A stretch of DNA of 64,000 bases from Hexactinellida sp. DTS-2022 (lineage: Eukaryota > Porifera > Hexactinellida), in the NCBI GenBank assembly GCA_028753945.1, contig JAPNXP010000017.1, positions 992,001 to 1,056,000 on the forward strand, given 5' to 3'. How positions within the stretch are numbered: the first letter of the stretch is position 1; each line of letters opens with the position of its first letter. Shown here in pieces: positions 3,835 to 50,134 of the stretch. A program made the translations under genes and the position numbers. The notes beneath the pieces are model-generated. The model was not told the DNA's origin. It worked only from the letters and a program-made list of their open reading frames with translations, and ran no database searches.

Positions 3835-3868
3835 CATACCTGCCAACCGTACAGGAATTCCCTGTACA

Positions 3869-4172
3869 GTACTGTCATGAGATAGGGCCACGCACTAGTG
3901 TGAAGACTAGTCGTTCTAGTCGACCCTAACTCATGGGGATGTCATGAGTAGTGGTTTCGTCCCATTGCAGGGACTCCTCAGGAGGGTAACCCTCGACCAC
4001 CATGCGTACTGCCGGTCCTGTGCCCTTAGCACACCCGTACTGCCCATGTGTCCTTCCACATGGCTACCAGTCGTACTGCCGGACCAAACCCTACAAACTT
4101 CATGTAGTGTCCCGTACTGCCACCTATAGTCTTTCCCAAGGACTATACTCCTGTAGGCTACAGGTAATGTCT
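3869..4172 (-). ncRNA. Structured hammerhead-bearing element, copy 1
   Basis: About 300 bp, GC-richer than its surroundings and almost entirely foldable. In plus-strand order it holds: a long helix (CATGAG at 3876-3881 with CTCATG at 3930-3935, plus TAGGG with CCCTA); the hammerhead complement (3951-4000); then four copies of the 9-mer CGTACTGCC (4005, 4036, 4072 and 4113), with hairpins between and after them (GTGC/GCAC, CATGTG/CACATG, CTACA/TGTAG, ATAGTC/GACTAT, CTGTAG/CTACAG). The RNA sense is the minus strand because the ribozyme reads that way. No reading frame is conserved between the two copies. It may be a retrozyme-like or viroid-like small RNA replicon copied into DNA; this is inference. 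Confidence 0.75.
3951..4000 (-). ncRNA. Type III hammerhead ribozyme, copy 1
   Basis: The minus strand has every element of the hammerhead consensus in order. Helix III is GUGGU (complement of 3996-4000), followed by cleavage-site C17 (complement of 3995). Helix I is GAGGG/CCCUC with a UUA loop. The core CUGAGGA fits CUGANGA. Helix II is GUCCC/GGGAC with loop UGCAAU. Then come GAA, A15.1 and CCAC closing helix III. Helix III is the open one, so it is type III. Predicted cleavage is between the complements of 3995 and 3994. All catalytic-core residues are present. Confidence 0.88.
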
Positions 4173-4529
4173 ATAACAATAGTATATTCTGCCATCCATT
4201 CTGCATTGACCACATAAAGGCACAACTGGTTTATATATTTGTTCAAGCGTACAGGAATTCCCTGTACAATATATAATTTAATGCTTTCTCCTTTCCAAAG
4301 TGCTAATTTTACAATGTAAGTGTATAGTAATTCCCTGGACGAGCGAGCGCAGCGAGCGAGAAATCTTTGGGAGGTGTACAGGGATTTTGGCCAATGTACA
4401 GGGGAAAATTGGAGCCCTGTACAGGGATATGACTCAAATAGGTTGGCAGGTATGTAATTAAAGGTTTTAAACATTTGGAAGTAGATAGTTGAACCATAGC
4501 AAAGGAATATGGATGATAAATAAGTACCG

Positions 4530-4817: not shown

Positions 4818-5060
4818 TATTACTGTGCCGACTATACTATAGTATAGTGGCCCAGTATTGGAATCACTGCCTTTATTTATTACTGTGCCGACTATACTAT
4901 AGTATAGTGGCCCAGTATTGGAATCACTGCCTTTATTATTATTACTGTGCCGACTATACTATAGTATAGTGGCCCAGTATTGGAATCACTGCCTTTATTA
5001 TTACTGTGCCGACTATACTATAGTATAGTGGCCCAGTATTGGAATCACTGCCTTTATTAT
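4818..5060. repeat. 60-bp palindromic minisatellite, 4 copies
   Basis: Four consecutive copies of a unit starting ACTGTGCCGACTATACTATA, with period 58-62 bp, each containing the perfect palindrome ACTATACTATAGTATAGT. One to three copies of the same unit sit in several array units (6337-6460, about 9139, 11570-11690, about 12548, 16169-16350, about 21525) and in the single copy at 43.5 kb. Confidence 0.85.
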
Positions 5061-6214
5061 TATTTTTTTTTTTTTTCTCCGTAGACGGTGCCCTGGCAAG
5101 AGCTTTAGAGTTGATGGGCTTAAACTTGGCATGTAGGTGCGATAGGACCGTCTAATTTGCACCTGGGGTTACGATTTTTGATTAACAAATTTTTTACACA
5201 TCTTTAACACCTTTCAAAATTTGTCTGGTCCATAACTCAAAAATTGTTTTACTAAACCCCCACATTTTATTTTATATTTGGATTCACCATAAAATTCTGC
5301 GTCTGATGGGAGAAGAAACCTTTCAATAAAGGGGTCAATTTCTGCCATAAATGGGGGTTGAAATTTCTTTGTTTACTCACACTTCAATTTCAGTAAAGTG
5401 TTAAATCTAATTCCATTGTTTCAACTTGTAATAATTATATTGATTTAACTTGTTAAATCCTACTCTAGTGATTCAACTTGCGATAATTATATTGATTCAA
5501 CTTATAAATTCCAGCTGGCTTCTATTTTGCAATTGAAAATTAAGATTATATATTTCATAACAACGACATATTATGTGATTATATTTACTTCTGCGTGAAT
5601 ATAATTGCACTGTTAATATACTGACGTAATTAATTATAAATAATTCAGTTTGTATTTAACTTATATAGAAGCTTCCAATTTGTATATTAGAGGTTATCGA
5701 GTGTGCGGAATTGAAATTTGATAGATAAATTAATTAATTAATTATTTATGACAAAATAATTGAACTTAATAATTGTATGTTGACATTGAAATTGGTGTCA
5801 TATTATAAATAATATTAATAATTATTTATACTAATTAATTAAATATCATAAATCTCAGAGATCATAGAAGATAGAAACAAACTTTCAATATATCAATTGG
5901 TCCTTATGACACGTGCCACCTATACAAGTGGGTCTTGACACCTTGAGGTGATGATGACATCGTTAAAAAAATGTGTTTTTACAATTTTGTTAATTCGATA
6001 TTTAAAATGGGTTAGTTAATGTTGGTTGATGACCCAACACCCACTTAAAAAATGCTGAGTCATTACAGATTATATTCTACTGAAACTTGAATATCTCTTT
6101 AATGAAGTGAGCTGAATGGAAACTTCCACCACTCTAAAGGGTCGTTGCCTTCTGAAACACCTTTCTGAAATAATTTAACACCTTCATAGTGATGATGACA
6201 TGGCGAAAAAAAAA

Positions 6215-6335
6215 ATCCAAAATTGCAGCCTGTGCCGACAGCATGTTCCTTTGGAGGCACTATCAATAAACCAACAACAAAATATAGTGCCACCAAAGGA
6301 TCATGCGTCGGCACAGGCTGCAATTTTGGATTTTT
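6215..6335. repeat. Representative hairpin of the array unit
   Basis: CCAAAATTGCAGCCTGTGCC on the left is answered by its reverse complement on the right (GGCACAGGCTGCAATTTTGG), enclosing a second inverted block AGCATGTTCCTTTGGAGGCA. Stems of about 50 bp around a short loop, flanked by A-runs on the left and T-runs on the right. Fifteen copies occur in the array. Confidence 0.8.
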
Positions 6336-9300
6336 TTTACTGTGCCGACTATACTATAGTATAGTGGCCCAGTATTGGAATCACTGCCTTTATTATTATT
6401 TTTACTGTGCCGACTATACTATAGTATAGTGGCCCAGTATTGGAATCACTGCCTTTATTTTTATTATTTTTATTTTTTCTCCGTAGACGGTACCCTGGCC
6501 AGAGCTTAATTGTTGATGGGCTTAAACTTGGCATGTAGGTGCGATGGGACCGTCTAATTTGCACCTGGGGTTACGATTTTTGATTAACAAATTTTGGACA
6601 CATTTTTAACACCTTTCAAAATTTGTCTGGTCCATAACTTGAAAATTGTTTTACTAAACCCCCAAATTTTATTTCACATTTGGATTCGCCATAAGATTCT
6701 GCGTCTGATGGAAGAAAAAATATTTCAATAAAGGGGTCAATTTCTTCCATAAATGGGGGTTGAAATTTCTTTGTTTACTCACACTTCAATTTCAGTAAAA
6801 CTGTGAAATCTAATTCCATTGTTTCAACTTGTAATAATTATATTGATTTAACTTGTTAAATCCTACTCTAGTGATTCAACTTGCGATAATTATATTGATT
6901 TAACTTATAAATTCCAGCTGGCTTCTATTTATTGTAGTATTACTATACAATGGATTAAATAAAATATTATAATATAAGGAATTTGTTGACTTAATTCAAC
7001 TTAACCGTGGATAACATTGCTAAAATAAATAACTAATAATATAATTTATTATCAATACATAATGAATGAATGGCTTTAAACTCAAGATGGTTTATGATAG
7101 AACCGTAAGATTTACATTCCACAACAACGACAGATTAAGTGAATATATTTATTTCGGCGAGAATATTCTTGCACAATTAATGTACTGACGTAATTAATTA
7201 TAATTAATTCCTTTTGTATTTAACTTATAGACGGTTCCAATTGGATTATTGGGGTTATCGAGTGCGTGGAATTCAAACATTATAGTGAAATTCAATGTAA
7301 ATTAATAATAATTGCAAATAATTGAACTTAATTTATTTTGCTGTATATAATAATGGTGTTAAATAATTAATACATTAATTAAATTTTTATGCTAATTAGC
7401 TAAATTTCATTAATCTCAGAGATGATACAAGATATAAACAAACTTTCAATTTATCAATTGGTCCTTATGCCAGGTACCACCTATACAAGTGGGTCTTGAC
7501 ACCTTGAGGTGATGATGACATCGTTAAAAAAATGTATTTTTACAATTTTTTTAATTCGACATTTAAAATGGGTTAGTTGGTGTTGGGTGATGACCCAACA
7601 CTCACATAAAAAATGCTGACTCAGCACTTATTATATTCTACTGAAACTTGAATATCTTTGAAACGAAGTGAGCAAAATGGAAACTTCCACGACTCTAAGG
7701 GTCGTTGCCTTCTGAAACACCTTTCTGAAATAATTGAACACCTTCATAGTGATGATGACATGGCGGAAAAAAAATCCAAAATTGCAGCCTGTGCCGACAG
7801 CATGTTCCTATGGAGGCACTATCAATAAACCACCACCAAAATATAGTGCCACCAAAGGAACATGCGTCGGCACAGGCTGCAATTTTGGATTTTTTATTAT
7901 TTCTCCGTAGCAGGTGCCCTGGCCACACCAGTATACATTAAGGGCTGAAACTTGGCATGTAGTTGCCGAGTGACCGTCTAATTTGCACCTGGGGTTACGA
8001 TTTTTGATCAAATAATTTTAACACCTATTTAAACTAATTATGGCTCATAACATTAGATAATTAATAGTGAGCTTGATAAATTTTACATGTACGGATAGAT
8101 AATTAAATTCTACACCTTTTAGCAAATCAAAAAATTTCAATATGGCCTAGATTTGTGCCTTAATAAGGGTACCAATCTCCTGTATTTTCTCACACTTCAG
8201 ATTCAATAAAACTGTTAAATATAATTCTATTGTTTCAACTTGTAATAATTATATTGAATCTAATTCCATTGTTACAACTTGCAATAATTATATTGATTTC
8301 AACTTGTGAGATCGAGTAGGCTTCTATTTTCCAATTGAAAAAAAAGATTATATATTTCATAACAACGACAGATTATGTGATTATATTTACTTCTGCGAGA
8401 ATATTATTGCACTGTTAATATACTGACGTAATTAATTATAATTAATTCAGTCAGTATATGACTTATATAGATGCTTCCAATTTGTTTATTAGGGTTTATC
8501 GAGTGTGCGGAATTGAAATTTGATTGCCAAATTAATTAATTAATTATTAATGACAAAATAATTAAACTTAATAAATATAAGTTGACATTGAAATTGGTGT
8601 TAAATTATAAATATTATAAATAATTATTTATACTAATTAATTAAATATAATAAATCTCAGAGATCATAGAAGATAGAAACAAACTTTCAATTTATCAATT
8701 GGTCCTTATGGCACGTGCCACCTATACAAGTGGGTCTTGACACCTTGAGGTGATGATGACATCGTTAAAAACATGTGTTTTTACAATTTTGTTAATTCGA
8801 AATTTAAAATGGGTTAGTTGATGTTGGGTGATGACCCAACACTCACATAAAAAATGCTGAGTCATCAGCTATTATATTCTACTCAAACTTAAATATCTCT
8901 ATAATGAAGTGAACTAAATGGAAACTTCCACCACTCTAAGGGTCGATGCCTCCTGAAACACCTTTCTGAAATAATTTAACACCTTCATAGTGATGATGAC
9001 TTGGCAAAAAAAATCCAAAATTGCAGCCTGTGCCGACAGCATGTTCCTTTGGAGGCACTATCAATAAACCACCACCAAAATATAGTGCCACCAAAGGAAC
9101 ATGCGTCGGCACAGGCTGCAATTTTGGATTTTTTTTATTACTGTGCCGACTATACTATAGTATAGTGGCCCAGTATTAGAATCACTGCCTTTATTTATAT
9201 TATTATTATTTCTCCGTAGCAGGTGCCCTGGCCACACCTGTATACATAGAAGGCTGAAACTTGGCATGTAGATTCGGAGTCGACGTCTAATTTGCACCTG

Positions 9301-11262
9301 GGGTTACGATTTTGTATTAACAAATTTTTGACACATCTTTAACACCTTTCAAAATTTGTCTGGTCCATAACTCAAAAAATGTTTTACTAAACCCCAAAAT
9401 TTTATTTCACATTTGGATTCGCCATAAAATTTTGCGTCTGATGGGAGAAGAAATTTTTCAATAAAGGGGTCAATTTCTGCCATAAATGGGGGTTGAAATT
9501 TCTTTGTTTACTGACACTTCAATTTCAGTAAAGTGTTAAATCTAATTCTATTGTTTCAACTTGTAATAATTATATTGATTTAAGTTGTTAAATCCTACTC
9601 TAGTGATTCAACTTGCGATAATTATATTGATTTCACTTATAAATTCCAGCTGGCTTCTATTTAATTTTAATATTACTATACAATTGATTAAATTAAATAA
9701 TATAATATAAGGAATTTGTTGACTCAACTCAACCAACCATGGATAACATTGCTAAAATAAATAACTAATAATATAATTTATTATCAATACATAATGAATG
9801 AATGGCATTAAACTAAAGATGGTTTATGATAGAACCGTTAAGATTTTACATTCCACAACAACGACAGATTAAGTGATTATATTTATTTCGGCGAGAATAT
9901 TCTTGCACAATTAATGACTGACTTAATTAATTATAATTAATTCATTTTGTATTTAACTTATAGACGGTTCCAATTGGATTATTGGGGTTATCGAGTGCGC
10001 TGAATTCAAATATGATAGTGAAATTCGATTTAAATTAATAATAAGTGCAAATAATTGAACTTTATTTATTTTGCTGTACATAATAATGGTGTTAAATTAT
10101 TAATTTATTAATTAAATATTTATACTAACTAGCTAAATTTCATTAATCTCAGAGATGATACAAGATAGAAACAAACTTTCAATTTATCAATTGGTCCTTA
10201 TGCCACGTACCACTTATACAAGTGAGTCTTGACACCTTGAGGTGATGATGACATCGTCAAAAAAATGTATTTTTACAATTTTGTGAATTAAATATTTCGC
10301 ATGGGTTGGTTGGAGTTGGGTGAATACCCAACACGCACTTTAAAAATGCTGAATCATCACAGATTATATTCTACTGAAACTTGAATATCTCTCAAATGAA
10401 GTGAGCTAAATGGAAACTCCCACCACTCTAAGGGTCGTTGCCTACTGAAACACCTTTCTGAAATAATTTAACACCTTCATAGTGATGATGACTAGGCGAA
10501 AAAAAATCCAAAATTGCAGCTTGTGCCGACAGCATGTTCCTTTGGAGGCACTATCAATAAATCACCACCAAAATATAGTGCCACCAAAGGAATATGCGTC
10601 GGCACAGGCTGCAATTTTGGATTTTTATTATTATTTTTTTCTCCGTAGACGGTGCCCTGGACAGAGCTTTATAGTTGATGGGCTGAAACTTGTCATGTAG
10701 GTGCGATGGGACCGTCTAATTTGCACCTGGGGTTACGATCTTTGATTAACAAATTTTGGACACATCTTTAACACCTTTCAAAATTTGTCTGGTCCATAAC
10801 TCAAAATATGTTTTTATAAACCCCAAAATTTTATTTCATATTTGGATTCACCATAAAATTCTGCGTCTGATGGGAGAAGAAAATTTTCAATAAAGGGTTT
10901 AATTTCTGCCATAAATAGGGGTTGAAATTTCTTTGTTTACTCACACTTCAATTACTGTAAAACTGTGAAATCTAATTCCATTGTTTCAACTTGTAATATT
11001 TATATTGATTTAACTTGTTAAATCTTTCACTATTGTTTCAACTTGCAATAATTAAATTGATTTAACTTATAAATTCCAGCTGGCTTCTATTTAATTGTAG
11101 TAATACTATACAATGGATTAAATATAATAATATAATATAAGGAATTTGTTGACTCAACTCAACCAACCGTGGATAACATTGCTAAAATAAATAACTAATA
11201 ATATAATTTATTATCAATACATAATGAATGAATGGCATTAAACTCTAGATGGTTTATGATAG

Positions 11263-11566
11263 AAACAAACTTCAAATTTATCTACCGTTCCTTGTGACTC
11301 GGACCAAATAACAAATGCTTCTTCACACCTTGGACGTTGATGACTTGGCAAAAAAAATCCAAAATTGCAGCCTGTGGCGACAGCATGTTCCTTTGGAGGC
11401 ACAATCAGTAAACCAACCACAAAATATAGTGCCACCAAAGGAACATGCGTCGGCACAGGCTGCAATTTTGGATTTTTTTTGCCAAGTCATCAACGTCCAA
11501 GGTGTGAAGAAGCATTTGTTATTTGGTCCGAGTCACAAGGAACGGTAGATAAATTTGAAGTTTGTT
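11263..11566. repeat. 304-bp near-perfect palindrome inside the array
   Basis: The standard hairpin is extended outwards: the flank (CTTCAAATTTATCTACCGTT, CACACCTTGGACGTTGATGA) is repeated as its reverse complement on the other side. The right arm ends where the 60-bp minisatellite begins. The inversion breakpoint therefore lies at the hairpin. Confidence 0.85.
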
Positions 11567-14500
11567 TTTTTTACTGTGCCGACTATACTATAGTATAGTG
11601 GCCCAGTTCTAATCTCACTGCCTTTATTACTGTGCCGACTATACTATAGTATAGTGGCCCAGTATTAGAATCACTGCCTTTATTATTATTTTTATTATTA
11701 TTATTATTTCTCCGTAGCAGGTGCCCTGGCCACACCTGTATACATAGAGGGCTGAAACTTGGCATGTAGATTCGGAGTCGACGTCTAATTTGCACCTGGG
11801 GTTACGATTTTGTATTAACAAATTCTTGACACATCTTTAACACCTTTCAAAATTTGTCTGGTCCATAACTCAAAAAATGTTTTACTAAACCCCAAAATTT
11901 TATTTCACATTTGGATTCGCCATAAAATTCTGCGTCTGATGGGAGAAGAAATTTTTCAATAAAGGGGTCAATTTCTGCCATAAATGGGGGTTGAAATTTT
12001 TTTGTTTACTGACACTTCAATTTCAGTAAAGTGTTAAATCTAATTCTATTGTTTCAACTTGTAATAATTATATTGATTTAACTTGTTAAATCCTACTCTA
12101 GTGATTCAACTTGCGATAATTATATTGATTTAACTTATAAATTCCAGCTGGCTTCTATTTAATTTTAGTATTACTATACAATTGATTAAATTAAATAATA
12201 TAATATAAGGAATTTGTTGACTCAACTCAACCAACCATGGATAACATTGCTAAAATAAATAACTAATAATATAATTTATTATCAATACATAATGAATGAA
12301 TGGCATTAAACTCAAGATGGTTTATGATAGAAACAAACTTCAAATTTATCTCCCGTCCTTGTGGCTCGGATCAATTAACAAATGGATCATGACACCTTGA
12401 GGCGTTGATGACTTGGCGAAAAAAAATCCAAAATTGCAGATGTGCTGACAGCATGTTCTTTTGGAGGCACTATCAATAACCCACCAACAAAATATAGTGC
12501 CACCAAAGGAACATGCGTCGGCACAGCTGCAATTTTGGATTTTTTTTTACTGTGCCGACTATACTATAGTTTAGTGGCCCAGTTCTAATCTCACTGCCTT
12601 TATTTTTTTTTTTTTTTTTTTTTTCTCCGTAGACGGTGCCCTGGCCAGAGCTTTATACTTGATGGGCTGAAACTTGGCATGTAGGTGCGATGGGACCGTC
12701 TAATTTGCACCTGGGGTTACGATTTTTTATTAACAAATTTTGGACACATCTTTAACACCTTTCAAAATTTGTCTGGTCCATAACTCAAAATATGTTTTAC
12801 TAAACCCCAAAATTTTATTTCACATTTGGATTCACCATAAAATTCTGCGTCTGATGGGAGAAGAAAACTTTCAATAAAGGGTTTAATTTCTGCCATAAAT
12901 GGACGTTGAAATTTCTTTGTTTACTCACACTTCAATTTCAGTAAAACTGTGAAATCTAATTCCATTGTTTCAACTTGTAATAATTATATTGATTTAACTT
13001 GTTAAATCCTACTCTAGTGATTCAACTTGCGATAATTATATTGATTTAACTTATAAATTCCAGCTGGCTTCTATTTAATTCTAGTATTACTATACAATGG
13101 ATTAAATAAAATCTAATTATATAAGGAATTTATTGACTTAATTCAACTTAACCGTGGATAACATTGCTAAAATACATAACTAATACTATAATTTATTAAC
13201 AATACATAATGAATGAATGGCTTTAAAGTTTAAACTCAAGATGGTTTATGATAGAACCGTAAGATTTTACATTCCACAACAACGACAGATTAAGTGAATA
13301 TATTTATTTCGGCGAGAATATTCTTGCACAATTAATGTACTGACGTAATTAATTCTAATTAATTCGCTCTGTGTTTAACGTATAGAGACGGTTCTAAATA
13401 GATTATTGGGGTTATCGAGTTCGCTGAATTCAAATACGATAATGAAAATCTATTTAAATTAATAATTATTGCAAATAATTGAACTTTATTTATTTTGATG
13501 TATATAATTTTGGTGTTAAATTATTAATAGATTAATTAAATTTTTATACTAATTAGCCAAATTTCATTAATCTCAGAGATGATACAAGATAGAATCAAAC
13601 TTTCAATTTATCAATTGGTCCTTATGCCAGGTACCACCTATACAAGTGGGTCTTGACACCTTGAGGTGATGATGACATCGTTAAAAAAATGTATTTTTAC
13701 AATTTTTTTAATTCGACATTTAAAATGGGTTAGTTGGTGTTGGGTGATGACCCAACACTCACATAAAAAATGTTGACTCATCGCTTATTATATTCTACTG
13801 AAACTTGAATATCTTTGAAATGAAGTGAGCTAAAACGAAACTTTCAACTCACTAAGGGTCGTTGCCTTTTGAAACACCTTTTCGAAATAATTTAACACCT
13901 TCATAGTGATGATGACATGGCGAAAAAAAAATCCAAAATTGCAGCCTGTGCCCAGAGCATGTTCCTATGGAGGCACTATCAATAAACCACCATCAAAATA
14001 TAGTGCCACCAAAGGAACATGCGTCGGCACAGCTGCAATTTTGGATTTTTTTTTTTTTTTTTTCTCCGTAGACGGTACCCTGGCCAGAGCTCTATAGTTG
14101 ACGGGCTGAAACTTGGCATGTAGGTGCGGTGGGACCGTCTAATTTGCACCTGGGGTAACGATTTTTGATTAAGAAATTTTTGACACATCTTTAACACCTT
14201 TCAGATTTTGTCTGGTCCATAACTCAAAATATGTTTTACTAAACCCGAAAATTTTATTTCATATTTGGATTCCCCATAAAATTCTGCGTCTGATGGGAGA
14301 AGAAAACCTTCAAAAAAGGTTTTATTCCTGCCATTAATGGGGGTTGAAATTTCTTTGTTTACTCACACTTCAGTTTCAATAAAACTGTTAAATCTAATTC
14401 CATTGTTTCAACTTGCGATTATTATATTGATTTAACTTGTTAAATCTTACTCTATTGATTCAACTTGCGATAATTAAATTGATTTAACTTATAAATTGCA

Positions 14501-17500
14501 GCTGGCTTCTATTTAATTTACCATACAATGGATTAAATAAAATAATATAATATAAGGAATTTGTTGACTTAATTCAACTTAACCGTGGATAACATTGCTA
14601 AAATACATAACTAATACTATAATTTATTAACAATACATAATGAATGAATGGCTTTAAAGTTTAAACTCAAGATGGTTTATGATAGAACCGTAAGATTTTA
14701 CATTCCACAACAACGACAGATTAAGTGAATATATTTATTTCGGCGAGAATATTCTTGCACAATTACTGTACTGACGTAATTAATTCTAATTAATTCGCTC
14801 TGTGTTTAATATATAGAGACGGTTCTAAATAGATTATTGGGGTTATCGAGTTCGCTGAATTCAAATATGATAATTAAATTCAATTTAAATTAATAATTAT
14901 TGCAAATAATTGAACTTAATTTATTTTGATGTACATAATTTTGGTGATAAATTATTAATAGATTAATTAAATTTTTATACTAATTAGCTAAATTTCATTA
15001 ATCTCAGAAATGATACAAGATAGAAAGAAACTTTAAATTTATCAATTGGTCCTTATGACACGTACCACCTAAACAAGTGGATCTTGACACCTTAAGGTGA
15101 TGATGACATCGTAAAAAAAATGAATTTTTCCAATTTTGTGAATTAAATAATTCGCATGGGTTGGTTGGAGTTGGGTAAACACCCAACACGCACTTAAAAA
15201 ATGCTGAATCATCACAGATTATATTCTACTGAAACTTGAATATCTCTCAAATAAAGTGAGCTAAATGGAGACTTCCAACTCACTAAGGGTCGTTGCCTTT
15301 TGAAACACCTTTGTGAAATAATTTAACACCTTCATAGTGATGATGACATGGCGAAAAAAAATCCAAAATTGCAGCTGAGCCGACAGCATGTTCCTATGGA
15401 GGCACTATCAATAAACCACCACCAAAATATAGTGCCACCAAAGGAACATGCGTCGGCACAGGCTGCAATTTTGGATTTTTTCAGTTTGTATTTAACTTAT
15501 ATAGAAGCTTCCAATTTGTATATTAGAGGTTATCGAGTGTGCGGAATTGAAATTTGATAGATAAATTAATTAATTAATTATTTATGACAAAATAATTGAA
15601 CTTAATAATTGTATGTTGACATTGAAATTGGTGTCATATTATAAATAATATTAATAATTATTTATACTAATTAATTAAATATCATAAATCTCAGAGATCA
15701 TAGAAGATAGAAACAAACTTTCAATATATCAATTGGTCCTTATGACACGTGCCACCTATACAAGTGGGTCTTGACACCTTGAGGTGATGATGACATCGTT
15801 AAAAAAATGTGTTTTTACAATTTTGTTAATTCGATATTTAAAATGGGTTAGTTAATGTTGGTTGATGACCCAACACCCACTTAAAAAATGCTGAGTCATT
15901 ACAGATTATATTCTACTGAAACTTGAATATCTCTTTAATGAAGTGAGCTGAATGGAAACTTCCACCACTCTAAAGGGTCGTTGCCTTCTGAAACACCTTT
16001 CTGAAATAATTTAACACCTTCATAGTGATGATGACTTGGCAAAAAAAAATCCAAAATTGCAGCCTGTGCCGACAGCATGTTCCTTTGGAGGCACTATCAA
16101 TAAACAACCAACAAAATATAGTGCCACCAAAGGAACATGCGTCGGCACAGGGTGCAATTTTGGATTTTTACTGTGCCGACTATACTATAGTATAGTGGCC
16201 CAGTATTAGAATCACTGCCTTTATTATTTTTATTATTATTACTGTGCCGACTATACTATAGTATAGTGGCCCAGTATTGGAATCACTGCCTTTATTACTG
16301 TGCCGACTATACTATAGTATAGTGGCCCAGTATTAGAATCACTGCCTTTATTATTATTTTTTCTCCGTAGACGGTGCCCTGGCCAGAGCTTTATAGTTGA
16401 TGGGCTGAAACTTGGCATGTAGGTGCGATGGGACCGTCTAATTTGCACCTGGGGTAACGATTTTTGATTAAGAAATTTTTGACACATCTTTAACACCTTT
16501 CAATTTTTGTCTGGTCCATAACTCAAAAATTGTTTTACTAAACCCCCAAATTTTATTTCATATTTGGATTCACCATAAGATTTTGCGTCTGATGGGTGAA
16601 GAAAATTTTCAATAAATGGTTTAATTTCTGCCATAAATGGGGGTTAAAATTTCTTTGTTTACTCGCACTTCAGTTTCAATAAAACTGTGAAATCTAATTC
16701 CATTGTTTCAACTTGTAATAATTATATTGATTTAACTTGTTAAATCTTACTCTATTGTTTCAACTTGCGATAATTAAATTGATTCAACTTATAAATTCCA
16801 GCTGGCTTCTATTTAATTCTAGTATTACTATACAATGGATTAAATAAAATATAATAATATAAGGAATTTGTTGACTAAACTCAAATCACCGTGGATAACA
16901 TTGCTGAAATAACTAACTAATAATATAATTTATTATCAATACATAATGAATGAATGGCATTAAACTCAAGATGGTTTATGATATAAACTAACTTCAAATT
17001 TATCTACCGTTCCTTGTGACTCCGACCAATTAACAAATGGTTCTTCACACCTTGGGCGTTGATGACTTGGCGAAAAAAATCCAAAATTGCAGCCTGCGCC
17101 GACAGCATGTTCCTTTGGAGGCACTATCAATAAACAACCAACAAAAATATAGTGCCACCAAAGGAACATGCGTCGGCACAGGGTGCAATTTTGGATTTTT
17201 TTATATTATTATTATTATTATTTTTATTTTTTCTCCGTAGACGGTGCCCTGGCCTGAGCTTTATAGTTGATGGGCTGAAACTTGGCATGTAGGTGCGTAT
17301 GGACCGTCTAATTTGCACCTGGGGTTACGATTTTTGATTAACGAATTTTTGACACATCTTTAACACCTTTCAAAATTTGTCTGGTCCATAACTCAAAATA
17401 TGTTTTACTAAACCCCCAAATTTTATTTCACATTTGGATTCACCATAAAATTCTGCGTCTGATGGGAGAGGAATATTTTCAAAAATAAGTTTAATTTCTG

Positions 17501-20500
17501 CCATAAATGGGGTTTGAAATTTCTTTGTTTACTCGCACTTCAATTTCAGTAAAAGTGTTAAATCTAATTCTATTGTTTCAACTTGTAATAATTATATTGA
17601 TTTAACTTGTTAAATCTTACTCTATTGTTTCAACTTGAGATAAATATATTGATTCAACTTATAAATTCCAGCTGGCTTCTATTTAATTGTAGTATTACTT
17701 ACTATACAATGGATTAAATAAAATATAATGATATAAGGAATTTGTTGACTAAACTCAAATCACCGTGGATAACATTGCTAAAATAAATAACTAATAATTT
17801 AATTTATTATCAATAAGTAATGAATGAATGGCATTAAACTAAAGATGGTTTATGATAGAACCGTTAAGATTTTACATACCACAACAACGACAGATTATTT
17901 GATTATATTTACTTCTGCGTTAATATTATTGCACTGTTAATATACTGACGTAATTAATTATAATTAATTCAGTCAGTATATGACTTATATAGATGCTTCC
18001 AATTTGTTTATTAGGGGTTATCGAGTGTGCGGAATTGAAATTTGATGGACAAATTAATTTATTTATTATTTATGACAAAATAATTAAACTTAATAAATAT
18101 AAGTTGACATTGAAATTGGTGTTAAATTATAAATAATATTAATAATTATATATACTAATTAATTAAATATCATAAATCTCAGAGATCATAGAAGATAGAA
18201 ACAAACTTTCAATTTATCAATTGGTCCTTATGGCACGTGCCACCTATACAAGTGGGTCTTGACACCTTGAGGTGATGATGACATCGTTAAAAAAATGTGT
18301 TTTTACAATTTTGTTAATTCGATATTAAAAATGGGTTAGTTCATGTTGGGTGATGACCCAACACTCACATAAAAAATGCTGAGTCATCAGTTGTTATATT
18401 CTACTCAAACTTGAATATCGCTAAAAGGAAGTGAACTAAAACGAAACTTCCACCACTCTAAGGGTCGATGCCTTCTGTAACACCTTTTTGAAATGATTTA
18501 ACACCTTTATAGTGATGATGACTTGGCGAAAAAAAATCCAAAATTGCATCCTGTGCCGACAGCATGTTCCATTGGAGGCACTATCAATAAACCACCAACA
18601 AAATATAGTGCCACCCAAGGAACATGCGTCGGCACAGGATGCAATTTTGGATTTTTTTTTTTTTCTCCGTAGACGGTGCCCTGGCCACAGCTTTATAGTT
18701 GATGGGCTTAAACTTTGCATGTAGGTGCGATGGGACCGTCTAATTTGCACCTGGGGTAACGATTTCTGATTAAGAAATTTTTGACACATCTTTAACACCT
18801 TTCAAATTTTGTCTGGTCCATAACTCAAAAATTGTTTTACTAAACCCCCAAATTTTATTTCATATTTGGATTCACCATAAAATTCTGCGTCTGATGGGTG
18901 AAGAAAATTTTCAATAAATGGTTTAATTTCTGCCATAAATGGGGGTTGAAATTTCTTTGTTTACTCACACTTCAATTTCAGTAAAAGTGTTAAATCTAAT
19001 TCCATTGTTTCAACTTGTAATAATTATATTGATTTAACTTGTTAAATCCTACTCTAGTGATTCAACTTGCGATAATTATATTGATTCAACTTATAAATTC
19101 CAGCTGGCTTCTATTTAATTGTAGCATTACTATACAATGGATTAAATTAAATTAATTTATATAAGGAATTTGTTGACTTTACTCAACTCACCGTGGATAA
19201 CATTGCTAAAATAAATAACTAATAAGTTAATTTATTATCAATAAGTAATGAATGAATGGCATTAAACTAAAGATGGTTTATGATAGAACCGTTAAGATTT
19301 TACATTCCACAACAACGACAGATTAAGTGATTATATTTATTTCGGCGAGAATATTCTTTTTGCACAATTAATGTACTGACGTAATTTATTATAATTAACT
19401 CCTTTTGTATTTAACTTATAGAATTTTCCAATTGGATTATTGGGGTTATCGAGTGCGCTGAATTCATATATGATAGTGAAATTCGATTTAAATTAATAAT
19501 AAGTGCAAATAATTGAACTTTATTTATTTTGCTGTACATAATAATGGTGTTAAATTATTAATTTATTAATTAAATATTTATACTAATTAGGTAAATTTCA
19601 TTAATCTCAGAGATGATACAAGATAGAAACAAACTTTCAATTTATCAATTGGTCCTTATGCCAGGTACCACCTATACAAGTGGGTCTTGACACCTTGAGG
19701 TGATGATGACATCGTCAAAAAAATGTATTTTCACAATTTTGTGAATTAAATAATTCGCATGGGTTGGTTGGAGTTGGGTGAATACCCAACACGCACTTTA
19801 AAAATGCTGAGTCATCACAGATTATATTCTACTGAAACTTGAATATCTCTCAAATGAAGTGAGCTAAATGGAAACTTCCACCACTCTAAGGGTCGTTGCA
19901 TACTGAAACACCTTTCTGAAATATTTTAACACCTTCATAGTGATGATGACTAGGTGAAAAAAAAAAATCCAAAATTGCAGCTGTGCCGACAGCATGTTCC
20001 TTTGGAGGCACTATCAATAAACAACCACCAAAATATAGTGCCACCAAAGGAACATGCGTCGGCACAGCTGCAATTTTGGATTTTTTTATTATTATTATTA
20101 TTTTTTCTCCGTAGACGGTGCCCTGGCCTGAGCTTTATAGTTGATGGGCTGAAACTTGGCATGTAGGTGCGTATGGACCGTCTAATTTGCACCTGGGGTT
20201 ACGATTTTTGATTAACGAATTTTTGACACATCTTTAACACCTTTCAAAATTTGTCTGGTCCATAACTCAAAAGATGTTTTACTAAACCCCCAAATTTTAT
20301 TTCACATTTGGATTCACCATAAAATTCTGCGTCTGATGGGAGAGGAATATTTTCAAAAATATGTTTCATTTCTGCCATAAATGGGGTTTGGAATTTCTTT
20401 GTTTACTCACACTTCAATTTCAGTAAAAGTGTTAAATCTAATTCTATTGTTTCAACTTGTAATAATTATATTGATTTAACTTGTTAAATCTTACTCTATT

Positions 20501-22872
20501 GTTTCAACTTGAGATAAATATATTGATTCAACTTATAAATTCCAGCTGGCTTCTATTTAATTGTAGTATTACTATACAATGGATTAAATAAAATATAATG
20601 ATATAAGGAATTTGTTGACTAAACTCAAATCACCGTGGATAACATTGCTAAAATAAATAACTAATAATTTAATTTATTATCAATAAGTAATGAATGAATG
20701 GCATTAAACTAAAGATGGTTTATGATAGAACCGTTAAGATTTTACATACCACAACAACGACAGATTATGTGATTATATTTACTTCTGCGTTAATATTATT
20801 GCACTGTTAATATACTGACGTAATTAATTATAATTAATTCACTCAGTATATGACTTATATAGATGCTTCCAATTTGTTTATTAGGGGTTATCGAGTGTGC
20901 GGAATTGAAATTTGATGGACAAATTAATTTATTTATTATTTATGACAAAATAATTAAACTTAATAAATATAAGTTGACTTTGAAATTGGTGTTAAATTAT
21001 AAATAATATTAATAATTATATATACTAATTAATTAAATATCATAAATCTCAGAGATCATAGAAGATAGAAACAAACTTTCAATTTATCAATTGGTCCTTA
21101 TGGCACGTGCCACCTATACAAGTGGGTCTTGACACCTTGAGGTGATGATGACATCGTTAAAAAAATGTGTTTTTACAATTTTGTTAATTCGATATTAAAA
21201 ATGGGTTAGTTCATGTTGGGTGATGACCCAACACTCACTTAAAAAATGCTGAGTCATCAGTTGTTATATTCTACTAAAACTTGAATATCTTTGAAATGAA
21301 GTGAGCTAAAACGAAACTTCCAATTCATTAAGAGTCGTTGCCTTTTGAAACACCTTTCTGAAATAATTTAACACCTTCATAGTGATGATGACTAGGCGAA
21401 AAAAAATCCAAAATTGCAGCTTGTGCCGACAGCATGTTCCTTTGGAGGCACTATCAATAAACCACCACCAAAATATAGTGCCACCAAAGGAACATGCGTC
21501 GGCACAGGCTGCAATTTTGGATTTTTACTGTGCCGACTATACTATAGTATAGTGGCCCAGTATTGGAATCACTGCCTTTATTTTTATTATTTTTATTTTT
21601 TCTCCGTAGACGGTGCCCTGGCCTGAGCTTTTTAGTTGATGGGCTGAAACTTGGCATGTAGGTGCGTATGGACCGTCTAATTTGCACCTGGGGTTACGAT
21701 TTTTTATTAACAAATTTTTGACACATCTTTAACACCTTTCAAAATTTGTCTGGTCCATAGCTAGAAAAATGTTTTACTAAACCCCCAAATTTTATTTCAT
21801 ATTTGGATTCGCCATAAAATTCTGCGTCTGATGGGAGAAGAAAATTAGTTAAAATTGGTTTAATTTCTGCCATAAATGGGGGTTGAAATTCCTTTGTTTA
21901 CTCAACACTTCTATTTCAATAAAACTGTGAAATCTAATTCCATTGTTTCAACTTGTAATAATTATATTGATTTAACTTGTTAAAGCTTTCACTATTGTTT
22001 CAACTTGCGATAATTAAATTGATTCAACTTATAAATTCCAGCTTGTTTCTATTTAATTCTAGTATTACTATACAATGGATTAAATAAAATATAATAATAT
22101 AAGGAATTTGTTGACTAAACTCAAATCACCGTGGATAACATTGCTAAAATAACTAACTAATAATATAATTTATTATCAATACATAATGAATGAATGGCAT
22201 TAAACTCTAGATGGTTTATGATAGAAACAAACTTCAAATTTATCTACTGTTCCTTGTGACTCGGACCAAATAACAAATGCTTCTTCACACCTTGGGCGTT
22301 GATGACTTGGCGAAAAAAAATCCAAAATTGCAGCCTGCGCCGACAGCATGTTCCTTTGGAGGCACTATCAATAAACCATCAACAAAATATAGTGCCACGA
22401 AAGGAATATGCGTCGGCACAGCTGCAATTTTGGATTTTTTTATTATTATTTTTATTTTTTCTCCGTAGACGGTGCCCTGGCCTGAGCTTTATAGTTGATG
22501 GGCTGAAACTTGGCATGTAGGTGCGTATGGACCGTCTAATTTGCACCTGGGGTTTCGATTTTTTATTAACAAATTTTTGACACATCTTTAACACCTTTCA
22601 AAATTTGTCTGGTCCATAGCTAGAAAAATGTTTTACTAAACCCCCAAATTTTATTTCACATTTGGATTCACCATAAAATTCTGCGTCTGATGGGAGAAGA
22701 AATTTTGTTAAAATTGGTTTAATTTCTGCCATAAATGGGGGTTGAAATTCCTTTGTTTACTCAACACTTCTATTTCAATAAAACTGTGAAATCTAATTCC
22801 ATTGTTTCAACTTGTAATAATTATATTGATTTAACTTGTTAAAGCTTTCACTAGTGTTTCAACTTGCGATAA

Positions 22873-23599
22873 TTAAATTGATTCAACTTATAAATTCCAG
22901 CTGGCTTCTATTTAATTCTAGTATTACTATACAATGGATTAAATAAAATATAATAATATAAGGAATTTGTTGACTAAACTCAAATCACCGTGGATAACAT
23001 TGCTAAAATAACTAACTAATAATATAATTTATTATCAATACATAATGAATGAATGGCATTAAACTCTAGATGGTTTATGATAGAAACAAACTTCAAATTT
23101 ATCTACTGTTCCTTGTGACTCGGACCAAATAACAAATGCTTCTTCACACCTTGGGCGTTGATGACTTGGCGAAAAAAAATCCAAAATTGCAGCCTGCGCC
23201 GACAGCATGTTCCTTTGGAGGCACTATCAATAAACCATCAACAAAATATAGTGCCACGAAAGGAACATGCGTCGGCACAGCTGCAATTTTGGATTTTTTT
23301 TCGCCAAGTCATCAACGCCCAAGGTGTGAAGAAGCATTTGTTATTTGGTCCGAGTCACAAGGAACAGTAGATAAATTTGAAGTTTGTTTCTATCATAAAC
23401 CATCTAGAGTTTAATGCCATTCATTCATTATGTATTGATAATAAATTATATTATTAGTTAGTTATTTTAGCAATGTTATCCACGGTGATTTGAGTTTAGT
23501 CAACAAATTCCTTATATTATTATATTTTATGTAATCCATTGTATAGTAATACTAGAATTAAATAGAAGCCAGCTGGAATTTATAAGTTGAATCAATTTA
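22873..23599. repeat. ~727-bp terminal palindrome of the array
   Basis: The last unit turns round at its hairpin (centre about 23236). The right arm then reads back through GGAACAGTAGATAAATTTG, GCAATGTTATCCACGG and CCAGCTGGAATTTATAAG, almost base for base. I noted one mismatch around 23550 and small differences at the loop. The array stops at the outer end of the right arm. Confidence 0.9.
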
Positions 23600-23631
23600 T
23601 TTTTGTTGACTCCTAAATAATTTTACTCGCC

Positions 23632-29827: not shown

Positions 29828-31030
29828 ATGTCATTCGAATGTCAGCGAAACAGCTATAAACGCGAGTTCAACACGAAGGTAGTTTCTTGTCAGCCCTCCG
29901 AAGAGGAGCCTGGTCTGTACCGGGTCCTATTCGAGGACACGATCCTGTTTCCGGAGGGGGGAGGACAGCCTGAAGATCTCGGCTGTCTGGACGGCGGAAT
30001 ATCTGTGGTGCACGTGAGGAGAGAGGGAGGCTCGGCGGCGCACTACACGGACGCGCCGCTGGAGGTGGGGGCGCAGGTCCAGATGCGAGTGAACTGGGAG
30101 CGCAGGTGGGACCACATGCAGCAGCACTCGGGGCAGCACCTAATCACCGCAGTGCTGGAAAGCTGCTTCGGATACAAGACAGTCAGCTGGTCCCTGTCGG
30201 TGGGGGAGGGGAGCAGGTGCTCCCTGGAGCTGGACGGCAAGGTGAGCGAGCAACAGCTGAGAGAGGCGGAGCTGGAGTGCAATAGGCTTATCAGGGAGGC
30301 CAGGCCAGTAGAGGTGAGAGTAATAGTGTTCGACTCTGAGGAGTTCAACTCAATTCGGTCGCGCGGGCTCCCTTCTGGCAGCGTGGGCCCCATCCGAGTG
30401 GTGGACATGGCAGGGGTGGATGTGAACATGTGCTGCGGAACTCACGTGTCCAACCTTAGCCACTTGCAGTGCGTGAAGCTGCTGCACGCGGAGCAGAAGG
30501 GTTCTGCTTGTCTGTTGTACTTCTTGGTGGGCGGGAGGGTGTGCCACCAGCTGGGCAAGATGTACGCGCTGGAGCGGGGCGTGACTCGACTGCTCAGCTG
30601 CGGACCTGAAGAGCACCTGCTCCGGATAGAGAGGCTAGGCGCGCAACAGCGGGCTGACGCTAAGCAGACGAAGGCGTATCTCCGGGAGATAGCAGAGATG
30701 ACTGCTAGTCTCCATCTGTCTACTCCAGGCCCGGCCCAGCCCTTCTTCCTCCTGCATAGAGACGACGGGGACAGCGAGTTCATGTTGGTGCTGTGTGGCC
30801 GCCTGCTGCCCCACAGGGCGGTGGTGCTGCTGACTGGCGGAGGCAAGAAGGGACAAGGAACCTTCATGATGAGTGGAAGCGATGGTAAGCTCGTGTCAGA
30901 GCTGGGACCGCAGGTTTGTGAGATCCTAGTCGGGAAGGGAGGGGGGAAGGGAACTAGGTACCAAGGAAAGGTTCAGAAAATAGAAAACCATCAAATTGCT
31001 TTTGAGTTTGTTAAGAACTATTTTACTTAA
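29828..31030 (+). CDS. AARSD1: Alanyl-tRNA editing protein AARSD1 (AlaX type)
   Basis: 400 residues, close to the roughly 412 of the vertebrate protein and alignable along its length. Zinc-binding editing-site ligands are present: His100 and His104 in QQHSGQH, and Cys202 and His206 in CCGTH. Other family landmarks are LFPEGGGQP (40-48), WERRWDHMQQ (90-99), GPIRVVDMAGVD (187-198) and the Gly-rich C-terminus (LVGKGGGKG). The family acts in the cytosol as a free-standing proofreader, hydrolysing Ser-tRNA(Ala) and so preventing Ser-for-Ala errors. The start MSFECQRNSY matches the family N-terminus. The coding region is intronless and clearly GC-rich, with G/C-ending codons, unlike the AT-rich kinase next door. 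Its 5' flank is the MITE at 29174-29788, so its promoter or 5' UTR must use or bridge that element. Confidence 0.95.
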   Translation: MSFECQRNSYKREFNTKVVSCQPSEEEPGLYRVLFEDTILFPEGGGQPEDLGCLDGGISVVHVRREGGSAAHYTDAPLEVGAQVQMRVNWERRWDHMQQHSGQHLITAVLESCFGYKTVSWSLSVGEGSRCSLELDGKVSEQQLREAELECNRLIREARPVEVRVIVFDSEEFNSIRSRGLPSGSVGPIRVVDMAGVDVNMCCGTHVSNLSHLQCVKLLHAEQKGSACLLYFLVGGRVCHQLGKMYALERGVTRLLSCGPEEHLLRIERLGAQQRADAKQTKAYLREIAEMTASLHLSTPGPAQPFFLLHRDDGDSEFMLVLCGRLLPHRAVVLLTGGGKKGQGTFMMSGSDGKLVSELGPQVCEILVGKGGGKGTRYQGKVQKIENHQIAFEFVKNYFT

Positions 31031-47769: not shown

Positions 47770-49416
47770 TAATTTTTACTGTAAAGCCGACTATGCTTAT
47801 ATATAGCATAGACTATAGTGGCCCAGTATTGAAATGACTGGTATATTATTATAATTCTAATATTTAGTCCGTATCCTCTCCACAGGACAGAGTTTTATTA
47901 ACTAAGAACTAAAAATTTCAGAATAGGGTTACAGATGTGCACCTGGGGTTACGATTTTTGATAATTTCCATTTCCATCCAAAAAGGTGACAAACTTTTAA
48001 CCAATTAATTTCGATGGATTATCGAGTAGCATTCAATGAATATAAAAGGATTTTCTATCAATTGTTATGTGTGCATTATAGAATGCCTAACATAGGCTGT
48101 AAATGAATTAGTCGACACTCGACAGTATATTCATGCATCCAATCAGTTATTTTTGTTCCATCATTGTTTTCAATTAGTTATTTTTACAGCATTTTATTTT
48201 GGAGGTACGTACTATTAATCAACCAACGACGAAAATATAGTGCCTCCAAAGGATTTGCTGTCGGCACACCTGTCATTTTGGTCGCACCTTTATAGATAAA
48301 GATCGGAAAATTGGCATGTAGTGCGGAGTGCCCGTCTAATTTGCACCTGGGGTAACGATTTTTGATCAAATAATTTTAGCATCTATTTAATCCAATTATG
48401 GCTGATAACATGAAATAATGAATAGTGAGATTGATACAATTTACATCTCTGGTTTTTGAGAATTTATTTTTATTTAAAGCTTTTGGCAGAAATTTGTTTG
48501 AAATTTGTCCATAGTTTCTGCCATAATTGGGGTGCCATCCGAGTCAATCTCCTAATTTTCCTCACACTTGAGATTCAGTAAAACTGTTAAATCTAATTCT
48601 ATTGTTTCAACTTGTAATAAATATATTGATTTAACTTGTTAAATCTTACTCTATTGTTTCAAGTTGCGATAATTATATTGATTCAACTTTACTTTTGAAA
48701 TCGAGTAGGCTTCTATTTTCTAATTGAAAACTAAGATTCGACATTCCATAACAACTTATGTGAGTCAACTTATGCGAAATTATATGATTCTATTTCTTTC
48801 TGCAAGAGTAAGCTTGCACTATTAAATATCATATACAGAAAAACATTCAGAAAGTAAACACCCTGTGGACCAGGGACGTTGCCAGGATTTTTCACCTAGG
48901 GGGGCATAGAAATTGCCAGGGGGGGGGGAACAGTATATTGGTTTTAGATCTAGCAGTTGACGTTACCAAAAACTAGGCGATAAAGATGAAGCTTTCTAGT
49001 TTAATGTCCTGCAAAGTATGAAATGTAGCCTACAAAATCAATACATTAACAATAATTTTTCAACCCCAGCAAATACTACAGCTTAACTACTAGCTATAAT
49101 GACAGTATAAAGTCAATTTTGACAAGTAAAGGTGTATTGTAAAACAGTTGATTAGAAGTTAGAACAAAAGTTTCCAAAATAACGAGGAATATCCTACAAG
49201 CCGCATCTAGATTACTAACAGTCCATTCCTGTCAACCGTACAGGGATTTCAACATTTTGGATGTTCTGTCAAGGCGTACAGGGATGTAATAAATTGTATA
49301 TGGATTACTAGATGGATAAATGTTTGCCGAATAATACATAAAAAATGCCTAATCCTAAAATGTAGCATTTTGTTTTGTGTAAATTAATACCCTATTCAAG
49401 CGTACAGGGATTCTCT

Positions 49417-49754
49417 GTACTACTGTTACGAGATGAGGCCACGTACTAGTATCGAAGACTAGGCGCTCTAGCTGACCCCATCCCGTAAGGATGTTACGTG
49501 TGTGGTTTCGTCCCATTGCAGAGACTCATCAGGAGGGTAACCCTCGACCACCATGCGTACTGACGCACCTCTCGCTCCAGCCCGTAGCTCCTGCGAGTGC
49601 CGTACTGCCCATGTTCTCCATAGTCCTAGACTATGGTTACCAGTCGTACTGCCGGCCTGTGAATACTCACTTACCTATGAGTCTGCCCGTACTGCCACCT
49701 ATAGTCTTTCCCAAGGACTATACTCCTGAAGGCTACAGGTGATATCTATAACAC
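49417..49754 (-). ncRNA. Structured hammerhead-bearing element, copy 2
   Basis: Same order of parts as 3869-4172: a long helix (TTACG 49426-49430 with CGTAA 49484-49488; GATG with CATC), the hammerhead complement, then CGTACTGCC 9-mers at 49556 (one mismatch), 49601, 49645 and 49688, with hairpins CTCGC/GCGAG, CCATAGTC/GACTATGG, ACTCA/TGAGT inside GGC/GCC, and ATAGTC/GACTAT. The middle stems differ in sequence from copy 1 but still pair; linkers and the last hairpin are nearly invariant. Confidence 0.75.
49502..49551 (-). ncRNA. Type III hammerhead ribozyme, copy 2
   Basis: On the minus strand: helix III GUGGU, cleavage-site C (complement of 49546), helix I GAGGG/CCCUC with UUA loop, core CUGAUGA, helix II GUCUC/GGGAC with one U.G pair and loop UGCAAU, then GAA, A15.1 and CCAC. 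It differs from copy 1 at N7 of the core (U for G) and at one helix II position, both compatible with activity. Confidence 0.9.
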
Positions 49755-50064
49755 TACAACTATATAGTATTTCAATATTATCTGCTATCCTAAGTGATTA
49801 TTTTGATTTATGTCAAACTTAATAAGAATAAATAACATGTTCTTATGTATATCTTGACACACATAATAAAATGCTTTTCGTTAGTGTAATACACTGTAAT
49901 TCGTTTCAATATAAGTGTAGATTTACATTTTAGACGAGCGAGCGAAGCGTGCGAGAAAAAAATTTGAGGTGTCTAGGGATCTTGACCAATGTACAGGGGA
50001 AAATTCGAGCTCGTACAGGGATATGACTAAAATGGATTGGAAAGTGTGAATTCATTAAATTGAA

Positions 50065-50134
50065 TTCAATAGCATCAATGAATCAGAGGAATAAAATAGT
50101 TCAATAGCATCAATGAATCAGAGGAATAAAATAG
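50065..50134. repeat. 35-bp perfect tandem duplication
   Basis: TTCAATAGCATCAATGAATC and the next 15 bases are repeated exactly once, between the hammerhead element and the poly-G end of the hAT element. Confidence 0.9.

Follow-up and report, generated by a model that had tools for sequence, protein, structure and literature searches.

A row of hairpins beside a hammerhead ribozyme in a glass sponge genome probably belongs to the LTR of a retrozyme-like element

In a 64,000-nucleotide stretch (hereafter the window) of the genome of a glass sponge, Hexactinellida sp. DTS-2022, a row of hairpins separated by a nine-nucleotide linker, GGCAGTACG, adjoins a ribozyme at two places. The question raised by this locus is what kind of element such a row belongs to, since a first-pass annotation of the DNA knew of no described family with this layout. 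Judging from comparisons among the genomic copies, we consider both window copies to be solo LTRs of a non-coding LTR retroelement that carries type III hammerheads in its LTRs and resembles the plant retrozymes, with a probability of about 0.87. The parts of the two copies are as follows.

3873..4178, minus strand: copy 1, putative solo LTR of 306 bp, TGTTATAG...CTCATGACA, bounded by comparison with other genomic copies
4122..4178, minus strand: copy 1, conserved 5' domain of the LTR (TGTTATAGACATTACCTGTAGCC...GACTATAGGT)
4005..4121, minus strand: copy 1, hairpin row with linkers at 4005, 4036, 4072 and 4113
4081-4112 (H1), 4045-4071 (H2) and 4014-4035 (H3), minus strand: copy 1, hairpins between the linkers
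3949..4002, minus strand: copy 1, type III hammerhead ribozyme (HHR), core CTGAGGA, RF00008 56.2 bits
3873..3948, minus strand: copy 1, 3' arm A-B-C, the terminal part of the LTR, whose B strand is able to pair with A or C
49424..49753, minus strand: copy 2, putative solo LTR of 330 bp, TGTTATAG...CTCGTAACA
49556..49696, minus strand: copy 2, hairpin row with linkers at 49556 (one mismatch), 49601, 49645 and 49688
49500..49553, minus strand: copy 2, type III hammerhead, RF00008 53.7 bits
49420..49423 (left) and 49754..49757 (right), no strand: TSD of copy 2, CTAC

Read 5' to 3' on the minus strand, copy 1 consists of TGTTATAGACATTACC..., a linker, H1, a linker, H2, a linker, H3, a linker, the HHR and the arm with its terminal CTCATGACA, and the parts of copy 2 follow the same order. 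The first-pass annotation had placed the first row at 3869-4172, at most 6 nt from the element bounds, and the stems that it named are found in both copies. It had also given each copy four invariant linkers, which is correct for copy 1, where CGTACTGCC occurs four times exactly, but not for copy 2, which has three exact linkers and one mismatched linker (CGTACTGAC, at 49556). As it had noticed, a ribozyme stands beside the row; both HHRs score above the curated RF00008 cut-off of 48.5 bits. Cleavage of the copy 1 HHR would be expected between 3995 and 3994, to judge by the position of the GTC triplet. Copy 1 lacks a matching TSD, its plus-strand flanks being GTAC and ATAG. Taken alone, the six window hairpins only weakly beat dinucleotide shuffles (p = 0.27, 0.08, 0.12, 0.03, 0.13 and 0.16).

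Both copies lie within related TIR-type sequence (window 3836-4455 and about 49229-50048), at different positions in it. Around copy 1 this sequence runs CATACCTGCCAACC...GGTTGGCAGGTATG, and repeated GTACAGGGA motifs occur in the TIR-type surroundings of both copies. Elsewhere the window holds a large array (about 5050-23600) with repeats of at least 300 bp at spacings near 0.7-2.7 kb and ~60-bp units with a palindrome around CTATACTATAGTATAG, as well as an Aarsd1-like ORF (29828-31030) with 69% identity to Oopsacas minuta and 86-92% identity to three ENA proteins, a single gene that points to a glass sponge host.

The genome-wide search for linkers that the annotation had proposed yielded 124 linker pairs 15-45 nt apart (68 + 56) in the 112.4-Mb genome and none when the pattern was read backwards. 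All copies described here come from this one genome, and the RF00008, integrase and DNA-search counts are lower bounds. RF00008 has at least 68 genome matches, 64 of them above the cut-off, the count being a lower bound because 68 of 12319 candidates were scored; DNA queries with the two LTRs, in slightly shifted stretches, have at least 52 and at least 44. Copies were taken via linker pairs or via RF00008 score, and the 68 RF00008 matches supplied 30 loci and 20 further places.

Linkers and ribozymes occur together. Among 93 distinct HHR strings found with a regular expression, the region up to 420 nt upstream contains no linker in 15, one in 7, two in 35, three in 10, four in 24 and five in 2, and at least two of the 15 linker-less strings (L283:1825 and L303:3342) are probably chance. 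When up to one mismatch is allowed, 212 linkers lie on the HHR strand within 220 nt upstream of these 93 copies, compared with 2 on the opposite strand, and the downstream counts are 4 and 5. A fairer count, given that many loci were picked via linkers, comes from the RF00008 list: the 46 loci taken from it contain 52 HHR copies, of which 40 are accompanied by one linker or more and 34 by two or more. The cleavage site carries GTC in 83 of the 93 regular-expression copies.

Individual loci depart from this layout. At L289 (G000:C1:17174900-17177500) a 44-nt hairpin-linker unit is tandemly expanded, such that nine linkers precede one HHR. The HHRs of L237, L240, L244, L246, L249, L250, L275 and L281 have no recognisable linkers and a different 3' arm, and perhaps represent other subfamilies. 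L242 and L260 each contain adjacent HHRs that differ in sequence, 313 and 653 nt apart, perhaps as a result of nested or adjacent insertions.

Cross-copy comparison places the start of similarity typically at TGTTAT or TGTGAC and its end at ...CTCATAACA or a variant, and the DNA outside these ends is mostly unrelated between copies. With the ends anchored by sequence rather than by TSD, and with start motifs picked after the flanks had been listed, an identical 4-bp TSD flanks 19 of 38 anchored copies, compared with 18 of 1406 cross-pairs. The other 19 have no identical TSD, and some of these are inner LTRs of composite insertions. When the flanks of 19 copies were joined and used as queries against the retrieved loci, paralogues of the empty site were found for seven: L248, L253, L260, L271, L291, L297 and copy 2. 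The L271 matches are a tandem repeat within its own locus. Two empty sites lie in the window.

4242..4310, plus strand: paralogous empty site of the copy 2 insertion, within the TIR element around copy 1
50022..50106, plus strand: paralogous, empty counterpart of the L260 insertion site (TSD GCAT)

The joined flanks of copy 2 match the former at 76% over 76 nt, across the junction, and those of L260 match the latter at 90% over 89 nt. Mobility, which the annotation had suspected, is thus supported by both the TSDs and the empty sites.

Full-length and composite copies are also present. L328, a relative of copy 2, has the structure TACT-LTR-internal-PPT-LTR-TACT, with two HHRs that are 504 nt apart and score 53.7 bits each.

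C15:3148004-3148330 and C15:3148508-3148834: the LTRs of L328, with an internal part of about 174 nt

The PPT of L328 is AAAAAGGGAAGGTGA, followed by the TGTTATAG of the LTR, and purine-rich stretches stand at the equivalent place in L231, L298 and L266. L231 (TSD CTAC) and L298 (TSD ATAG) are similar full-length copies, at 385 nt, the 5' LTR of each being without the usual 3' arm; both HHRs of the direct pair are above the cut-off in L298, and one of the two is in L231. L266 (G000:C1:7627000-7630700) is a palindromic concatemer in which five LTRs form one insertion with TSD CTAT, in the order LTR-internal-LTR, palindrome, then three LTRs and two internal parts reversed. A loose regular expression finds 19 close HHR pairs, a list that includes the two probable chance strings, and of these 10 are direct, 6 face each other 3'-3' and 3 face 5'-5'. 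We infer that the direct, concatemeric and palindromic forms could arise when a circular template is reverse transcribed and fold-back follows. Given the TG..CA ends, the 4-bp TSD, the PPT and the full-length copies, the row most probably forms part of the LTR of a retrozyme-like element, and the new class that the annotation had suggested as possible does have known relatives.

The internal parts of L328 (TAAGTACTCC) and L266 (TAATAACTAC) do not begin with TGG, and no tRNA-Met primer binding site was seen after the 5' LTR; this reading was made by eye and is compatible with a site for an inner part of a tRNA. A hairpin spans the junction between LTR and internal part. It might substitute for the tRNA primer site, although we hold this to be somewhat doubtful.

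The PPT/LTR-start pattern occurs at 32 places with up to two mismatches (11 for the reversed control), and at least 7 of these, as judged by eye, follow an integrase domain of the same orientation at a distance of 0.77-0.88 kb, in a domain search that scored 150 of 706 candidates. A Gypsy-type element at C4:2993666-2998201 has identical 176-bp LTRs (TGTTATAG...TTAACA), the TSD ATTA and the PPT GGTGA, again followed by TGTTATAG. Its internal part begins with TAAGTAC, seven letters common to L328 and L301; the internal part of L266 begins differently, with TAATAAC. Gypsy elements encode RT and RNase H and then integrase, and in the C4 element RVT_1 and RT_RNaseH are found ahead of the integrase, in a reading frame that is not continuous in the stretch read. 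No HHR string or linker is present in the three Gypsy 3' LTR stretches read. What the Gypsy-type element and the retrozyme have in common is the PPT/LTR-start box, the LTR 3' end letters and the 4-bp TSD, the boxes being short and the comparison resting on one Gypsy-type element read in detail. We regard the C4 element as a candidate helper, the intactness of which is in doubt given the short boxes, the varied internal starts and the broken frame.

The position of both window copies within related TIR-type sequence with GTACAGGGA repeats, together with the 3'-3' orientation of 6 of the 19 close HHR pairs, would agree with the TIR element (CATACCTGCCAACC) as the mobile unit, a hammerhead-bearing MITE or foldback DNA transposon whose hairpins are DNA cruciforms. 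However, among 91 copies only copy 1 and L281 have the exact TIR 9-mer anywhere from -420 to +220 relative to the HHR, the flanks of the other copies are mostly unrelated, and most copies appear to lie outside such TIR elements. The unit also has TG..CA ends, a 4-bp TSD, a PPT and full-length direct LTR pairs of its own, and the arm uses G-U pairs on the HHR strand. We consider this explanation very improbable and reject the TIR element as the mobile unit; it looks like the host site of both copies. About as improbable is a SINE-like metazoan retrozyme without LTRs, as reported by Cervera and de la Pena in 2020, which would agree with the animal host, the HHR, the small size and the tandem copies. 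The LTRs and the PPT refute it; in addition, the HHR fits the type III model, the TSD has a fixed length of 4 bp, the boxes are Gypsy-like, and neither long variable TSDs nor LINE/PLE signatures were seen in the copies read.

The alternative that retains most weight, while still improbable, is that the LTRs belong to or stem from a larger coding retrotransposon, the short full-length copies being deletion relics that pass through no RNA circle and the HHR serving only to trim transcripts. Gypsy elements with similar end boxes do exist in this genome, and the circular RNA stage is here a prediction from sequence. Against this, a motif preceding the PPT occurs at 8 places (1 for the reversed control), and in a comparison of positions by eye all of them are inside HHR LTRs or at most about 200 bp away from one. 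The three Gypsy 3' LTR stretches, moreover, lack HHR strings and linkers, and the head-to-tail units within the single L266 insertion fit a circular template.

The annotation had taken differences between the stems of the two copies as a sign of selection for RNA structure. The units between linkers comprise 104 distinct sequences in 37 clusters at 75%, which are not fully independent and may be distantly related; their mean z is -1.23, 9 of the 37 have p < 0.05 and the Fisher p is 3.8e-8, while several lack a stable fold. The 3' arm was aligned in 49 rows, 48 of them distinct (alignment A1); copy 2, which is identical to L277, was added, and the longer L242, L268 and L291 were omitted from 51 rows. 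In A1 the B-C helix with its tip has 94.5% of cells paired, compared with at most 47.0% in slid versions. Its doubly changed cells number 24, where shuffles average 6.7, and its covariation score is 0.185, where they average 0.138; none of 500 shuffles reaches either value, in statistics that, like all shuffle statistics for the arm, ignore relatedness among copies. The number of pairs changed on both sides, 4 (shuffle mean 3.5; 255 of 500), and of further pair types, 14 (shuffle mean 15.5; 488 of 500), is not above shuffles, and 23 of the 48 sequences do not form pair 33-85. On the HHR strand, columns 31-87 form AU in 28 and GU in 20 sequences, and columns 36-82 form GU in 23, AU in 15 and GC in 7; this use of G-U pairs speaks for structure at the RNA level.

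The alternative A-B pairing reaches 77.6% of cells, with 16 doubly changed cells (0 of 500 shuffles); 41 of the 48 sequences do not form pair 12-31, and neither the pairs changed on both sides (2 vs 2.2) nor the further types (6 vs 7.1) exceed shuffles. Of 294 letters compared between the A and C motifs, 268 are the same, whereas shuffles average 239 and go no higher than 253. In columns 14-19 and 89-94 of A1 the A motif copies the LTR end (CATAACA, CATGACA, CATATCA, CGTAACA). One letter of this repeat lies outside every proposed helix, and a switch leaves it unexplained.

For the homologous hairpin H1 (16 sequences), 7 sequences have CG and 7 have UA at pair 8-33; there are 7 doubly changed cells, a number reached in 1 of 500 shuffles, while the number of doubly changed pairs, 1 vs 0.6 (290 of 500), is not exceptional. 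The strand preference of single hairpins lies within what base composition gives (30 of 200). For the predicted 504-nt circle the fold energy is -203.7 kcal/mol (z -5.7 vs 60 shuffles), and for its complement the raw value is -164.4 kcal/mol. The clusters and the arm thus bear out selection on RNA structure. The more specific proposal, compensatory replacement of whole stems, holds insofar as covariation is seen base by base, but the stems seem to differ partly because whole hairpin-linker modules have been exchanged, gained or lost, as the nine linkers of L289 illustrate, and some measures stay within shuffles. Such module turnover comes close to the recombination of stems from unrelated repeats that the annotation had named as counting against it.

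Under the retrozyme-like reading, a transcript that runs across two LTRs would be cut by both HHRs, self-cleavage would occur at GTC^GAGGG, and the unit of 385-504 nt would be ligated into a circle. Gypsy machinery might then reverse transcribe the circle into solo LTR, full, concatemeric and palindromic cDNAs, which Gypsy integrase would integrate. Of the possible roles of the hairpin row, the likeliest is that of a modular scaffold which, within the circle, would hold single-stranded GGCAGTACG sites apart for binding by a helper protein, Gag or RT; such binding of the linkers is a tentative idea that we still rate as rather unlikely. The roles of the linkers, the junction hairpin and the A/B/C switch are in any case conjecture. 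Equally speculative, and in our estimate rather unlikely, is the fuller proposal of a new, tRNA-free animal lineage, in which a self-priming hairpin formed by the LTR end and its reverse complement would give rise to palindromic concatemers, hairpins would be swapped in a cassette LTR between 9-nt protein-binding linkers, and the A/B/C switch would control ribozyme folding.

Relatives of the row in prokaryotes and viruses were considered and rejected. Two linkers occur in 107 viral-contig stretches, and three occur in 117 genome-contig stretches and 5 viral contigs; because the period is divisible by 3 in 378 of the 457 linker pairs in those loci, these are probably coding repeats in most cases, and a loose HHR-like string is near 3. 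Two longer conserved pieces had no matches in viral contigs (0 and 0). Translated in one frame, the LTR has no relatives among spurious proteins; in another frame it matches P0121 (E 0.13, 57% over 44 residues), from an ENA contig of 1059662 bases. This predicted 141-aa protein has the look of a frame that stays open by chance across a related LTR. Since the best match in the sponge genome is 60%, P0121 is probably from another sponge assembly, which suggests that a second assembly has a related LTR.

A plant-like retrozyme family with a candidate Gypsy helper in a glass sponge would mean that this life style either is ancient, has been transferred or arose convergently, and it would bear on the origin of viroid-like satellite ribozymes. 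The many copies and subfamilies constitute a natural mutational record in which hairpins turn over and the 9-nt linkers stay fixed, and the palindromic insertions bear on reverse transcription of circular RNA. Our literature search, which left subscription journals mostly outside its range, returned no match for a hammerhead ribozyme in a glass sponge or a retrozyme in Porifera, and the titles and abstract openings searched include no animal LTR retrozyme. In the portions of the papers available to us, animal retrozymes are type I and non-LTR (PMC7229834, PMC7761336, PMC11722881), LTR retrozymes with type III hammerheads are assigned to plants (PMC7761336, PMC11722881), and type III HHRs are reported as isolated motifs in termite genomes and also in dipteran genomes (PMC7936874).

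The sponge ribozyme itself is a member of Hammerhead_3 (RF00008), a model that spans the 54-nt ribozyme without the hairpin row or the arm. As far as the available parts of the following sources go, the metazoan non-LTR retrozymes (PMC7229834) share with the sponge element an animal genome, an HHR, small repeated units and tandem copies, but their HHR is of type I and they lack an LTR, a PBS and a PPT, whereas the sponge element has a type III HHR, an LTR and a PPT. The Helenus and Ajax TRIMs (PMC10886601) are likewise small non-autonomous animal LTR elements whose LTR harbours a functional RNA sequence, and animal Helenus also has a 4-bp TSD. However, Helenus has a PBS, and the Helenus and Ajax LTRs contain tRNA- or 5S-derived sequence, with no ribozyme described there, where the sponge LTR contains an HHR. 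The closest resemblance is to the plant LTR retrozymes, which, in the accessible text of Cervera et al. 2016 (PMC4918200), also have a type III HHR in each LTR, an LTR of about 330 bp, a 4-bp TSD, a PPT, frequent solo LTRs, no coding sequence and Ty3-gypsy boxes. The sponge element differs from them in its animal host, its junction hairpin and a unit of 385-504 nt rather than about 700, and of the two it is the only one with a modular hairpin row with GGCAGTACG linkers and a palindromic concatemer. Because no tRNA-Met primer site was seen in it, we keep it out of the plant LTR retrozyme family, although it probably works like a member of it, and regard it as a retrozyme variant, separate from that family.
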